A stretch of 64,000 nucleotides of DNA. Origin: an uncultured bacterium. Its GTDB lineage: Bacteria; Bacillota; Clostridia; Oscillospirales; Oscillospiraceae. Positions 51,525 to 63,632 of the stretch are shown piece after piece (position 1 is the stretch's first letter; every line of letters begins with the position of its first letter). Where the stretch lies: NCBI GenBank assembly GCA_947176765.1, contig CAMWRX010000001.1, positions 1 to 64,000 on the forward strand, written 5' to 3'. Below the pieces are notes generated by a model. It saw nothing but the letters and a program-made list of their open reading frames with translations, was not told where the DNA came from and searched no databases. The position numbers and the translations under genes are program-made.

Positions 51525-54470
51525 TCAGCGCAGCAGTTGGCCCACATCCTCCATCCCGCGCTGGGTGAGAAAGACAGCCAGGGGGGACTGCCGCAGCACC
51601 TCGCGGATGTCGCATGACAGCGTATCGGCCTCGCCGGTCGTCCGCACCACGCTGGTATAACTGTGGAAGCTGTACATACTGCTGAAGCTCTGCCCAAGCT
51701 GACCGTACATTGCGCCATAAGCCCCCTGGAGCCGGGTGACCCAGCGGCGGTCGGCGGCGAGGACAGTCATAGCGGCCCGGGCTGCCTCTCGGGAGGTGAG
51801 ATCCAGGGCGTCCAGGCGCAGGGCCCGGGCGGAGACCCGGAACCGGGGCAGCGTCACGGCGCCGTCCCCCACTTGGAGGGAGAGTCCCTTCTGCGTCCAA
51901 AGCTTGGCTCCGCCAATATCCGTTCCGGCGGACACCTGAACTTTTCCGCAGTTGCCGAACAGGCAGCCGCCGATGTCTCCGTCAGGCCCGCCTCCCTGGG
52001 CCTTTACCACCCGGGCGGAGCCGGTGATGACAATGTCGCCGCACGCCCCCTGGATACCCGCGCCGATGGCGGCGGCGCAGCAGGCGGCCTGGGCGGTCAC
52101 TGTGCCGCCTTGAATGCGGATGTCCCCTACAGGCGCGCCCAGCGCTCCGCCAATGCCGGCGCCGCCCCCGACCCCGGTGGCGGTGATTACCCCGCCGCGG
52201 ATGAGAATGGGGCCGGTGCGCTCCCGGCCCACGCTGCTGTCCCGGCCGATGCCCGCCCCGCCGGCTCCGCCGGTGGCGGTAAGAGTTCCATCGGGCGCTC
52301 CATTGGCGGCTTTGACCTGGTCAATGCGCAGAGAGGTGCCGTCCCCCAGGGATATGCCGGCGCAGCCTGTGCCGCTTTCAAAAACATTGTCTGTCCCGCG
52401 CTGCAAAAGCAAGGTCACATCGTTTCCGCGACCCAGGTTGAACGCTCTGCCGGACGGCACTCGGCATTCCACGCCGTTCAGGATCAGTTCCACCGCGCCA
52501 ATGCCGTCGGCCAGGGAAATCCTGCCGCTGAAGGGCAGTTGGTTTCCGTCAGTCCCGGCGCCTCCGGCGATGGCGGTCACCTCTCTGGACAGGATATGAA
52601 GGGTGCAGGTTTCCTCCTCGTAGTGCCAATCCACGTCCTGCTCGCCGCCGGTGACGGTGAACGGGTTGGGATGCATGGAGGTCTCCCGAAAGCTCCCCGA
52701 TTTTTCGTCCCAACGCACATAGATATAACGTGTCCTGGGGTGCCCCGCCTTATCCCTTCCCCGGAGGGCAATGGTGTGGGCGGGCCATTTCTCGTCGGAA
52801 TTCTGCTTCAGCAGCCAAAGCCGGACGGGATCCATCTGATCTTCTCGCAGGATCAATTGTCCCTGTCTGCCGTCCACTACCAGGGAGGTAATGGAGCTCC
52901 ATTCCGGAAGCAGCGTTTTCCATACGATGTCAAATGGGGTCAGAGGTTCTCCCTGGGCGTTGTGTACGGCGATTCCCTCCGCCGCCAGCAGGGAGACGGG
53001 GCCGTCCACCACCACTGAGACTGCCGAGGCTCCATTGGCCTCTTCGGTCAGCGCCACCGCGCCTCCAATCAGCCGCAGGACGCTGGACGCCCCGCCCCCG
53101 AGACCGCCGATGCGCAGCAGCCCGCCGCCATCCACGGTGAGGGTCACGCCGTCTTGTAGCTGGACCTGGGCCAGCGTGTTCTCTCCCACACTGAACACCC
53201 GGGTCTGGGCGGATTCCGCGGTCAGCAGGGGGGAGTTTATCTGCTGAAGGGTTACCGTCCCCGAGCCGGCAAGCCGGAGCGCTGGGTTCTCTTGGCCTTC
53301 CTGGTTCAGCCCCCGGAGGATCATATGTTCCGTTCCGTCTATTGTTAGTGAACTGGCCTCTGGGTCAAAGGACACAGCCGACAGATCCGGGCCCGACACC
53401 TGAACTGTTTCCAGTTCCAGCGTTTCCATTGGAAGGGCCGCCTCCTGTGCTTCCGCTGATGTAGCGATTCCGTCCAGCAGATCCATCAGCCCGTCTCCGG
53501 AACCGCCCAGGGCGGCCAGCAAATCCATCAGCATTTCCAGATCTCCGCCGCCGTCCCCCGCCAGGAGAGCCAGCATAGAGGGCATGGACAGAAGATCGTC
53601 GCCGGACAGCAGCAAATCCATTAAAAAAGTATCCAGCCCTGGGGCTGTGCCCCCGGTGAACTGGGCCTGAAAATCCTCCAGGCTGGTAAATGTGCCGCCG
53701 GTCAGCAGTTCCAATGCCTGATCCGGCGAAATGCCGTCCGCCACCATCTCCAGCAGTTGTCGCAGTCCCTCCGCCGCCTGGGCCGGATCCGTTGCCCCAG
53801 ACGGCGTACCGCCGGAAATCACCGCGCCCAGATAGAGCGCGGCCAGATAGCCCGCGGCGGAGCTGCTCTCCAGAGGCAGCTTTCCCAGAGCGGCCAGCAG
53901 CTCAGCGCCGCTGGCGGAGCCGTCCACCCCCAGCGCTGCCAGAAGCGCAGCTTTGTCGGGGGCGCTATCCATCCCCCGGAGCAGCCAGGAGGGGAGGCTT
54001 TGAACCCCTTCCTGTCGGGCGGAAAGGCCGTCTATCACCGCGTCTACCAGCTCGTCCAGGCCGTCTACGGCCTCACCGTCCTGAAACAGCCCCGCTTCTA
54101 CGCCGTCTTGGGCGATGCGCTCGATCTCCCCACGCAGCTGCTCCAGCTCCGCCTGGAGGGCGGCGCGATCCAACCGGCCGTCCCCTGCGGCCTGCCGGGC
54201 CAGTTCTTCCATGCGGCCCAGGTTGTCCTCCACTTCCGCCAGGGCGGCTTCCCCCGACTGAAGTGTACGGCGGCCCTCCCGGGCCTGCCGCCCCGCCTGG
54301 GTCACCCGGGTCATCAACTGCCGCAGGGTTTCCGAGACGGTGGCCGCCGCCCGGTTGGGGTTGGCCGCTTTCTGGGTCTGGCCCGTACCGGCTTGCTTCT
54401 CTGTCTTATCCGTCCTCTGATACCGGGACACGGCCAGTTCTCTGTTTCTGCGAATACTGAGCTCTCCCAT
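51525..54470 (-). CDS. Flagellin-like ends enclosing a large beta-helix-like central domain (981 aa)
   Basis: N-terminal AGRQAREGRRTLQSGEAALAEVEDNLGRMEELARQAAGDGRLDRAALQAELEQLRGEIERIA resembles flagellin D1; C-terminal SREAARAAMTVLAADRRWVTRLQGAYGAMYGQL...IREVLRQSPLAVFLTQRGMEDVGQLLR resembles the flagellin C-terminus; centre has GGAGGAGIG/IRGGVITATG repeats; no signal peptide. Confidence 0.7.
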   Translation of the reverse strand: MGELSIRRNRELAVSRYQRTDKTEKQAGTGQTQKAANPNRAAATVSETLRQLMTRVTQAGRQAREGRRTLQSGEAALAEVEDNLGRMEELARQAAGDGRLDRAALQAELEQLRGEIERIAQDGVEAGLFQDGEAVDGLDELVDAVIDGLSARQEGVQSLPSWLLRGMDSAPDKAALLAALGVDGSASGAELLAALGKLPLESSSAAGYLAALYLGAVISGGTPSGATDPAQAAEGLRQLLEMVADGISPDQALELLTGGTFTSLEDFQAQFTGGTAPGLDTFLMDLLLSGDDLLSMPSMLALLAGDGGGDLEMLMDLLAALGGSGDGLMDLLDGIATSAEAQEAALPMETLELETVQVSGPDLSAVSFDPEASSLTIDGTEHMILRGLNQEGQENPALRLAGSGTVTLQQINSPLLTAESAQTRVFSVGENTLAQVQLQDGVTLTVDGGGLLRIGGLGGGASSVLRLIGGAVALTEEANGASAVSVVVDGPVSLLAAEGIAVHNAQGEPLTPFDIVWKTLLPEWSSITSLVVDGRQGQLILREDQMDPVRLWLLKQNSDEKWPAHTIALRGRDKAGHPRTRYIYVRWDEKSGSFRETSMHPNPFTVTGGEQDVDWHYEEETCTLHILSREVTAIAGGAGTDGNQLPFSGRISLADGIGAVELILNGVECRVPSGRAFNLGRGNDVTLLLQRGTDNVFESGTGCAGISLGDGTSLRIDQVKAANGAPDGTLTATGGAGGAGIGRDSSVGRERTGPILIRGGVITATGVGGGAGIGGALGAPVGDIRIQGGTVTAQAACCAAAIGAGIQGACGDIVITGSARVVKAQGGGPDGDIGGCLFGNCGKVQVSAGTDIGGAKLWTQKGLSLQVGDGAVTLPRFRVSARALRLDALDLTSREAARAAMTVLAADRRWVTRLQGAYGAMYGQLGQSFSSMYSFHSYTSVVRTTGEADTLSCDIREVLRQSPLAVFLTQRGMEDVGQLLR

Positions 54471-54548
54471 CTCATGGGCCCCCTTTCGCCAGGCGGCAAA
54501 AGCCGTTTCCTCTTTTTATCAATATCGTCTCATTGGCGGGAAAAAATA

Positions 54549-54585
54549 AGCTTCCTCTTTTGGCAGACAGCCGAAAGAGGAAGCC
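54549..54585 (-). terminator. Terminator of the PHP-family phosphatase gene
   Basis: Minus strand GCTTCCTCTTTCGGC...AAAAGAGGAAGC followed by TTATTTTTT. Confidence 0.85.
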
Positions 54586-60948: not shown

Positions 60949-61076
60949 GGCGAAAATACCATGTTTTTCAAAGTGTTCAGAAAAAATTTACCTTGCGGGG
61001 CAAAATAACAGGTGTCAAATGGAAGCGGATGATGTATAATACTACCTTAGAGTAAAATTGCAAGAGGAGGAACACT

Positions 61077-62357
61077 ATGCGGCAGCATTGGAAACGGCTG
61101 GCGGACGGGGTAGAGTTGGCGGTAAACCAAACCGATAAGTTCAAGACCGGCCTTCTTGGGGTGACCCTTACCATCCCTCTTGATGCGGATACCGCCACCG
61201 CCGGGGCGTTGATTCCGGAGGTGCTCGGCCGGGGCAGTCGGAACTATCCGGATATGGAGAAGCTTTCCGCGGCGGCGGACGCGCTGTATGGCGCATCCCT
61301 GGGCCCCGTGGTGCGGCAGCGGGGGGAGAGCCAATGCGTCAGCTTTTTGTGCAGCTTTATTGATGACCGCTATGCCCTGGACGGGTCGGCGGTGCTGGAG
61401 CCAGCGGCCAAGCTGATGGGGGAGGTGCTGCTGGATCCAGTCCTCCAGGATGGCGTGTTCCGCCGGGACTATGTGGAGTCGGAGGGCGCAAACCTGGCTG
61501 ACCGCATTCAGGCCCGGGTGAACGACAAGCGGAGTTGGGCCGTGTTCCGCCTTATTCAGGAGATGTGTGCTGGGGAAGCCTATGCGGTGGACAAGCTTGG
61601 GAACGCGGATCAGGCCAAAGACATGAAGCCGGAGATGCTGTGGGCGGCCTACCGCTCTCTGTTGTCTGGGGCCAAGGTGAACTTTTATTATGGAGGCGGA
61701 GCCCAGCCGGAGCGGGTAGAGGACGCGGTTCGGCGTGCGTTTGCCCCATTGCTGACAGGGCGGGATGCCCCGGTGTGCTGTCAGGTGATTGCGGAGCCCA
61801 AGGGCCCTGTCCGTACGGTGACAGACGCTATGGACGTGACCCAGGGCAAACTGGCCATGGGCTTTCGCACCGGCGGGATTACCGTGGAAAGCGATGATTA
61901 TCCTGCCCTGCTGGTGTGCAATACGCTGTTCGGTGCCGGCGCCAATTCCAGACTGTTCCTCAATGTGAGGGAGAAAATGAGCCTGTGTTACTATGCCTCT
62001 TCTGCGCTGGACAAGCTCAAGGGGCTGATGGTGGTGTCCTCCGGGGTGGAGTTTGCCCAGTTTGACCGGGCCCAGGAGGCCATTCTGAAACAGTTGGACG
62101 AAGTGCGCCGGGGCCGCTTTTCCGGTGAAGAACTGAATGCCGCCATCCGCTCGGTGGTCACCGATCTGAGAGGGCGGCAGGACAGCCAGGGGCAGATGGA
62201 GGACGACCGGCTCACCGGCCTGCTGTTTCACTGTGCCGCCGGGGAGGGAGAGGCCCTCGCCCAAGAGGTGGAGCGGGTCACAGCCGACCAGGTGGCGGAG
62301 GTCGCCCGAAAGCTGAAGCTGGATACTATATACCGCCTCACAGGGAAGGAGGGCTGA
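61077..62357 (+). CDS. yfmF: M16-family peptidase-like protein (YfmF-like)
   Basis: HWKRLADGVELAVNQTDKFKTGLLGVTLTIPLDADTATAGALIPEVLGRGSRNYPDM; paired with a second M16 gene; a TGTATAATACT -10 lies upstream. Confidence 0.82.
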   Translation: MRQHWKRLADGVELAVNQTDKFKTGLLGVTLTIPLDADTATAGALIPEVLGRGSRNYPDMEKLSAAADALYGASLGPVVRQRGESQCVSFLCSFIDDRYALDGSAVLEPAAKLMGEVLLDPVLQDGVFRRDYVESEGANLADRIQARVNDKRSWAVFRLIQEMCAGEAYAVDKLGNADQAKDMKPEMLWAAYRSLLSGAKVNFYYGGGAQPERVEDAVRRAFAPLLTGRDAPVCCQVIAEPKGPVRTVTDAMDVTQGKLAMGFRTGGITVESDDYPALLVCNTLFGAGANSRLFLNVREKMSLCYYASSALDKLKGLMVVSSGVEFAQFDRAQEAILKQLDEVRRGRFSGEELNAAIRSVVTDLRGRQDSQGQMEDDRLTGLLFHCAAGEGEALAQEVERVTADQVAEVARKLKLDTIYRLTGKEG

Positions 62358-62360
62358 GCT

Positions 62361-63632
62361 GTGGACAAATTGGAGTACACCGCCTTGGGTCAGACAGTGT
62401 ACCACTGTGTGCTGCCCAACGGGCTGAACATATATGTGGACGTGCGCCCCGAGTACACCAAGCAGTTCGCCTTTTTCGCCACCCACTATGGAGGAATGGA
62501 TCTGCGCTTCCGGGATGAGGACGGCAGCTGGCTGGAAACGCCGGCGGGGGTGGCTCATTTTCTGGAGCATAAGACCTTTGATATGAAGGATGGCAACGCC
62601 CTCCAGCTTATGGCCGCCAACGGCACCGATCCAAACGCGTTTACTTCCTTCAACATGACCGGATATTATTTTGACGGCGTGCGGGGCTTTGAGGAAAATC
62701 TGCACACCCTGCTGTCTTTCGTGTCGGTGCCTTGGTTTACCCAGGAGAGTGTGGACAAGGAGCAGGGCATCATTGCCCAGGAAATCCGAATGTATGAGGA
62801 TGACCCCGCCAGCGAGGTGTTTGAGGGGCTGAAAGCAGCTATGTACACCCGCCATTCGGTGCGAACCCGGATTGCTGGAACAGTTGAATCCATCTCCCAC
62901 ATTACGGCGGACACCCTTTACCAGTGTCACCGAACCTTTTATCGGCCAGGAAATATGGTGCTGTGCGCGGCGGGCAATATTGACCCCCAGCGGGTGGCGG
63001 ATATTGCCCGGGAGGTGCTGTCTGACGCGCCTGCCGCCGCAGCGGTTGTAGATCACGGCCAGCCGGAGCCGGCGGAGGTAGGGGAAACGTTCACCCGCCG
63101 GACCATGCCGGTTTCCATCCCCATGTTCGCCCTGGGATTCAAGGGAACGCCCGCAGCCGAAGGGACGGGTCTGCGCCAGCGGCTGGTGGCCGAGCTGGTG
63201 TGCGACGTGCTGTTCAGCCCCTCCGCGCCGCTTTATAACCGTCTCTATGAGCAGGGACTGCTGAACGGCTCCTTCGGCAGCTCTTACTACGCCTTCCCCG
63301 GCTGCGCCTGGATCATGGCGGAGGGGGAGAGCCGGGAGCCGGAGCGCGTGAGGGACGAGGTGCTGAAGGAGGCTGCCCGCCTGGGGGCAGAGGGTATCGA
63401 CCAGGCGCTGTGGGATCGGCTGAAAAACGCGGCTTACGGTTCCATGGTGCGCCACCTCAATTCCATGGAGGATACCTGCATTGAGCTGGCCGAGGCCCAC
63501 TTCAATGGAGAGGATTATCTCAGCTTCCCCCAGGTATTCCAGAGCATTGATCGCGCCGACGGCGAGATGCTGCTGCGGGAGTGGTGCGTGGAGGAGCGAA
63601 CAGCCTTATCGGTGATTGAACCGGAAGAATAA
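62361..63632 (+). CDS. yfmH: M16-family peptidase (YfmH-like)
   Basis: FFATHYGGMDLRF...GVAHFLEHKTFDMKDGNALQLMAANGTDPNAFTSF (HxxEH-type HFLEH motif). Confidence 0.88.
   Translation: MDKLEYTALGQTVYHCVLPNGLNIYVDVRPEYTKQFAFFATHYGGMDLRFRDEDGSWLETPAGVAHFLEHKTFDMKDGNALQLMAANGTDPNAFTSFNMTGYYFDGVRGFEENLHTLLSFVSVPWFTQESVDKEQGIIAQEIRMYEDDPASEVFEGLKAAMYTRHSVRTRIAGTVESISHITADTLYQCHRTFYRPGNMVLCAAGNIDPQRVADIAREVLSDAPAAAAVVDHGQPEPAEVGETFTRRTMPVSIPMFALGFKGTPAAEGTGLRQRLVAELVCDVLFSPSAPLYNRLYEQGLLNGSFGSSYYAFPGCAWIMAEGESREPERVRDEVLKEAARLGAEGIDQALWDRLKNAAYGSMVRHLNSMEDTCIELAEAHFNGEDYLSFPQVFQSIDRADGEMLLREWCVEERTALSVIEPEE

Follow-up and report, generated by a model that had tools for sequence, protein, structure and literature searches.

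The window analysed here, a stretch of 64,000 nucleotides from an uncultured member of the Oscillospiraceae, raises the question of what role may be played by a protein that has flagellin-like ends and a very large insert, and whose gene stands apart from any flagellar cluster. The 30 ORFs of the window scanned with Pfam are housekeeping genes or have no assignment, and no flagellar genes are found among them; the initial annotation's remark that no flagellar genes lie nearby is thus true of the window, but not of the genome, which has a separate flagellar set. The gene, here called P0001, was confirmed as predicted, and its protein can be divided as follows:

51525..54470, minus strand: P0001, a single gene for a flagellin-family protein of 981 aa, ORF with an ATG start
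54342..54470, minus strand: residues 1-43, in place of the flagellin nD0; basic motif MGELSIRRNR and a variable linker
54075..54341, minus strand: residues 44-132, nD1 helical hairpin of flagellin (Flagellin_N)
53601..54023, minus strand: residues 150-290, putative flagellinolysin peptidase remnant; HExxH absent, WxxEG changed to WLLRG
52671..53426, minus strand: residues 349-600, beta-rich region (strands in the model)
51891..52670, minus strand: residues 601-860, beta-helix-like domain with PNPFTVTGG...GGAGIGG repeats
51528..51890, minus strand: residues 861-981, flagellin cD1 (KGLSLQVGD...) and a diverged cD0

The flagellin-like ends

The AlphaFold model of the protein, built from 22 orthologues, has a mean pLDDT of 71.5 and a pTM of 0.43, values at which the packing between domains is not established; it begins with a disordered stretch (residues 1-49, pLDDT < 50), forms a helical hairpin (45-95 and 102-125) and then a short-helix bundle (139-333), is built of beta strands between 349 and about 846, and has a last helix near the C-terminus (894-938), the extreme end being poorly modelled. 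As had been claimed at the outset, the N-terminus carries no Sec signal (over the first 48 residues, no 19-residue segment exceeds a hydropathy of -0.63), and no hydrophobic N-terminal stretch is present in any of the 22 orthologues.

The flagellin character of the N-terminal arm is borne out by several comparisons: Flagellin_N (PF00669) matches residues 18-122 with 44.2 bits (E 2.6e-11, cut-off 26.6) and is matched by all 22 aligned orthologues; the top PDB sequence match to the protein is a flagellin (E 1.5e-10); and the hairpin is aligned by Foldseek to flagellin structures with probability 1.0 and an rmsd of 1.1-1.6 Å over 66-80 columns, the corresponding E-values exceeding 0.1 because the aligned portion of the model is small. 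Alignments of single segments were judged against the best of 500 shuffles, and the main partner was L111, a canonical flagellin of 1,238 aa from the relative G093 (G093:C58, 1509-5222, plus strand; Flagellin_N 130 bits, Flagellin_C 92 bits), to which the nD1 of P0001 aligns with 67.4 bits (best shuffle 20.8). For the C-terminus the result is more nuanced: Flagellin_C of Pfam is not significant for the P0001 protein taken alone, but the segment aligns above shuffles to L111 (44.3 versus 25.0 bits) and to the FliC of its own genome (28.9 versus 23.5), and the C-terminus of the orthologue L072 aligns to flagellin with 67.8 bits (shuffles 22.3) in a match that extends to the final residue, and also matches NCBIfam flagellin C-termini. 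With matches to flagellin found both in sequence and in structure, P0001 is, on these comparisons, a real flagellin homologue, and its nD1 and cD1 are homologous to those of flagellin. 

Filament flagellins follow the pattern MxIxxN...EKLSSGxxIN in nD0 and NILxQ...VLxLL in cD0. The nD0 segment of P0001 gave no alignment with either of two flagellin nD0s tested, and in the family it is richer in Pro/Gly (4.3 versus 1.1 in flagellins, per 36 residues). Its first ten residues are well conserved (mean pairwise identity 0.76, compared with 0.35 for the linker 11-43) and form a motif, [MV]xxLx[IV] followed by a basic run and usually MGEL[ST][IV]RRNR, which has no second copy elsewhere in the genome and is possibly an export signal. 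At the other end, the cD0 is diverged and less hydrophobic than in flagellins (mean -0.36 versus +0.21); its register is ungapped in L062 and L072, the match to L111 extending to the final residue in both, and the retention of its length and register in these distant orthologues makes an assembly or chaperone function possible.

These features bear on the view that P0001 is a giant filament flagellin, which is unlikely given an nD0 that lacks similarity to flagellin D0 and is modelled as disordered. The same segment argues against a less demanding version, in which P0001, as a minor or tip-proximal subunit, would co-assemble with FliC by way of D1 contacts, so that part of the filament carried the beta-helix, as do the reduced hydrophobicity of the cD0 end and the presence in the genome of a separate canonical FliC of 590 aa; nonetheless, the D1 arms and the cD0 register are retained, L111, the relative nearest to it in shared domains, is a full flagellin, and flagellinolysin sits in the filaments of Clostridium haemolyticum (PMC5595980), so that this possibility, although unlikely, is the one to be taken most seriously among the alternatives considered here.

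The peptidase remnant and the beta-helix

The insert of about 750 residues reported in the initial annotation does contain a beta-helix, but of the ~220 residues that separate nD1 from the beta-rich part, residues ~150-290 are better described as the remnant of a flagellinolysin-type peptidase. L111 carries, besides a beta-helix of its own, the motifs HEMIH (at 317) and WFIEG (at 349), and reaches 184.9 bits with the flagellinolysin model (NF033876), just below the cut-off of 205; P0001 and L111 have four collinear segments in common, namely nD1, the peptidase from WxxEG on, the NPFT[VI]TGG beta-helix and cD1. The remnant aligns to residues 340-520 of L111 with 53.9 bits (best shuffle 21.2), and NF033876 matches the isolated fragment with an E-value of 1.3e-4 over profile positions 201-277, the whole P0001 protein reaching 30.7 bits on the same model. 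The HExxH motif is found in none of the 29 P0001-family sequences; three of them (L062, L066 and L067) retain the Glu of WxxEG, the third zinc ligand, which is replaced by Arg in P0001 (WLLRG). Since a fold search with the model of the isolated remnant matched no solved structure, the claim of a peptidase remnant rests on sequence.

The match of these residues to the half of the peptidase that follows HExxH leads to the reading that P0001 looks like a D0-degenerate, catalytically dead flagellinolysin-type flagellin, and we infer that it descended from such a flagellin through loss of the catalytic half; the four common segments may also reflect a convergent sharing of modules. In the tree, the P0001 family forms one clade (support 100/100, 27 rows), which joins the flagellins nearest to L111, with weak support and via a very long branch.

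No Pfam model matches residues 133-620, and the Gly/Ala ladder described in the initial annotation proves to be real, residues 601-820 being modelled as strands with a block pLDDT mostly of 78-96. The beta-helix aligns to that of L111 with 49.7 bits (best shuffle 28.1); the fold search with the whole model gave for it only weak pectate-lyase-like and Cthe_2159 matches (E > 0.1), nor was any useful match obtained when PDB sequences were searched with the family's middle-region profile. In L060, L064, L065 and L072 the helix has a reduced GGAGIGG part or lacks it, so that this part appears dispensable in some lineages.

Similar helices occur in the same genus on proteins of different kinds. L074 (G033:C83, 2456-8434, minus strand) is a canonical flagellin of 1,993 aa (Flagellin_N 123.6, Flagellin_C 76.6 bits) whose hypervariable region includes six Listeria-Bacteroides repeats as well as an extended GGAGIGG beta-helix; L114 (G028:C18, 713-9625, minus strand) has 2,970 aa, a Sec-like signal, an SLH-like C-terminus and beta-helix repeats resembling those of P0001. 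The occurrence of the GGAGIGG helix both behind a Sec-like signal and within a flagellin suggests one type of cargo using more than one export route. P0001 itself was rejected as a Sec-exported beta-helix adhesin, having no signal, in contrast to L114.

Regulation, distribution and selection

Two elements precede the gene:

54523..54548, minus strand: sigma28 (SigD)-type promoter of P0001, TATTTTTT-N11-GACGATA, with the same spacing as the fliC and cheA promoters
54550..54584, minus strand: terminator, a near-palindromic 15-bp stem and then TTATTTTTT, between the upstream PHP-domain gene and P0001

The promoter lies 52 bases upstream of the start codon, and its -35 region overlaps the T-run of the terminator-like stem, which the terminator scan lists on the plus strand, the minus-strand reading being identical. 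The fliC promoter of the same genome reads TAAAGTTT-N11-GCCGATA, and the common pattern TAWWNTT-N12-GMCGATA, loosened to take in the GACGATA of P0001 and to that extent mildly circular, occurs four times in the genome (upstream of P0001, of fliC and of the cheA operon, the fourth site being within an ORF) and not once in the reversed control. Support independent of the loosened pattern comes from distant orthologues, which have exact GCCGATA -10 elements; a sigma28-type promoter precedes the gene in 25 of 28 relatives, the pattern being unmatched in L062 (one base off), L066 and L067, and the motif is retained in orthologues despite differing upstream sequence. Taken together, these matches strongly support expression of P0001 from the sigma28 regulon.

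Neighbouring genes are held in common only among the five closest genomes, on which ground an operon or synteny partner was rejected; lacking conserved neighbours beyond these genomes, P0001 behaves as a stand-alone gene that has a promoter to itself. Elsewhere in the window (61047-63497, minus strand) there is an ORF of 816 aa with no Pfam match, the reality of which is uncertain, as it overlaps ORFs of the plus strand.

The source genome contains, away from the window, an apparently full flagellar set. A Flagellin_N search of the genome gave two matches, P0001 and the canonical flagellin, and FliD, FlgK, a FlgL-like protein, FliW, FliS and CheA are also encoded; the search for flagellar genes proposed in the initial annotation thus recovers fliC, a FlgL-like gene, flhA and a sigma factor adjoining flhA. 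P0001 was consequently rejected as an orphan flagellin of a non-motile cell. A hook-associated protein of the FlgL/FlgK type was likewise rejected, the FlgL model TIGR02550 giving 25.7 bits against a cut-off of 127.2 and the FlgK and FlgL-like genes, separate from P0001, being present next to fliW. Downstream of the genome's own fliC, in L004 (G000:C3:44001-62000), an extended series of sugar-nucleotide and transferase-like genes was noted by eye, which suggests a flagellin glycosylation island.

Orthologues of P0001 were found in 15 genomes of the same genus, the source genome included, and a GTDB scan returned 29 loci of the family, 28 of them more or less complete, in records that are all labelled Oscillospiraceae (Lawsonibacter, Oscillibacter and Pseudoflavonifractor among them) or more vaguely Bacillota/Clostridia. 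One of these loci, L073, comes from a cultured carrier, Pseudoflavonifractor sp. 60. Within the genus, the gene occurs in 15 of 17 genomes with flhA and in none of 20 without it (Fisher p 1.5e-8, shared ancestry being ignored), and the two flhA-positive genomes from which it is absent are both incomplete (87 and 71%). When a sample of 401 genomes of the family was searched with the middle-region profile, 17 were matched, and exclusion of G093, with its flagellinolysin-type flagellin, left 16 carriers, 15 of which have flhA (p 6e-10, again ignoring shared ancestry); in the remaining carrier, G424 (84% complete), genes of the FlgE and FlgC types are present. As about 73 sampled genomes with flhA are without P0001, it cannot be counted among the general parts of the flagellum. 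Five loci of the same genus (L145, L146, L147, L148 and L149, e.g. L149:1013-1207, plus strand) contain stand-alone short ORFs (those with a clear start have about 64-68 aa) whose similarity is confined to the nD1 hairpin (residues 63-121) and whose upstream sequences, as far as read, show no sigma28-like promoter.

Selection on P0001 is purifying: whole-protein dN/dS values lie between 0.12 and 0.26, and those of the beta-helix, the most constrained part, between 0.04 and 0.13. The loss of two signature parts, D0 and the protease, could be taken as a sign of a decaying pseudogene or an annotation accident; this idea, to which practically no weight is given, is ruled out by the selection just described, and the conserved promoter and the reading frames, which in almost every complete locus of the family are intact and about 880-1030 aa long, speak against it as well.

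The position of the strongest constraint is relevant to two further proposals. Flagellin ends are the usual targets of FliS and FliW, both encoded in the genome, and P0001 might accordingly be imagined as a factor of assembly or regulation, acting within the cell or at the junctions and binding FliS, FliW or FlgL, for example, by its flagellin-like ends, an idea with which the cD0 register kept in distant orthologues would agree; it is improbable, however, as it is the beta-helix that is most constrained, as close relatives of this helix occur in L114, with its Sec-like signal, and in the flagellin L074, and as, FlgK, FlgL and FliD all being present, no junction role is vacant. The second proposal concerns immunity. 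Residues R, L, Q and E, aligned with the known TLR5 contact residues of Salmonella flagellin, are present in the P0001 protein, but the Q and E positions vary among orthologues (Q/E/R/K and E/K/R/S/G, respectively), as would be expected from ordinary D1 packing. That P0001 is a secreted immune-modulating flagellin, making TLR5 contacts through nD1 without D0-dependent activation, can be argued by analogy with Campylobacter FlaC, a secreted non-motility flagellin (PMC4863622), and with 'silent' flagellins, which bind via nD1 without the activating cD0 site (PMC11285207); such a role has little probability, the strongest constraint falling on the beta-helix rather than on nD1.

Probable role and relation to known systems

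The reading preferred here, to which a probability of roughly 0.6 is given, is that P0001 belongs to the late flagellar regulon, is exported via the flagellar T3SS and, rather than building the filament, displays its conserved beta-helix, probably for adhesion or for binding a ligand. According to this scheme, P0001 would be transcribed with the late (sigma28/SigD) flagellar regulon and its product exported via the flagellar type III apparatus, the flagellar-type route already suggested in the initial annotation and considered probable in view of the flagellin-type arms and the absence of a Sec signal; because its nD0 is gone, the protein would not polymerise with FliC, and would leave the cell or remain loosely associated with the filament, where the beta-helix would bind a ligand such as a glycan or a mucus component. 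P0001 would then resemble a flagellin of the flagellinolysin type which, after losing both its protease and its polymerising end, was retained for its surface domain.

No description of the family was found in a search of open-access papers, and comparison with known systems places P0001 in the flagellin superfamily, its domain order being closest to flagellinolysin and its likely behaviour closest to FlaC, while it is a member of neither. Flagellinolysin (NF033876; Eckhard et al. 2017, PMC5595980) likewise has a collagenase-like gluzincin domain set between flagellin arms, the part of that domain beyond HExxH is recognisable in P0001, and L111 has a P0001-type beta-helix after its HExxH domain; P0001 differs in that the HExxH half is gone, the third ligand has changed from E to R, the nD0 is lost and the model score, 30.7 bits, is far below the cut-off of 205. 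Giant flagellins (PMC6248924) resemble it in the large insert between the D1 arms, but P0001, with 981 aa, falls just below the 1,000-aa definition, has an insert more conserved than the typical flagellin hypervariable region, and has lost its nD0, which, unlike in giant flagellins, makes filament formation doubtful. FlaC of Campylobacter (PMC4863622) is flagellin-like, not expected to build a filament and probably exported by the flagellar T3SS, as P0001 would be; it is without most of D2/D3, whereas in P0001 some 730 residues are inserted and the nD0 is lost, and secretion of FlaC has been measured, whereas that of P0001 is predicted. A cell-surface flagellin homologue of Sphingomonas (PDB 3k8v, 3k8w, 2zbi), having the flagellin fold and a cell-surface location assigned by the depositors, is among the best PDB matches to the nD1 of P0001, the region to which the comparison is confined; unlike P0001, its entries describe no beta-helix or peptidase remnant.

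Extended to the whole family, the proposal is more tentative, and is put at slightly less than an even chance: its members, derived from flagellin and bearing the new N-terminal motif in place of the usual start, would constitute a distinct flagellar-T3SS cargo, that is, non-polymerising and non-catalytic beta-helix binders, secreted or at the surface, of flagellated gut Oscillospiraceae.

Flagellins usually conserve their ends and vary their middles. The P0001 family reverses this pattern, its D0 end being lost and its exposed beta-helix being the most constrained part, which argues that the exposed domain is the function of the family; annotation by Flagellin_N alone would count proteins of this type as filament flagellins in surveys of gut flagellins.
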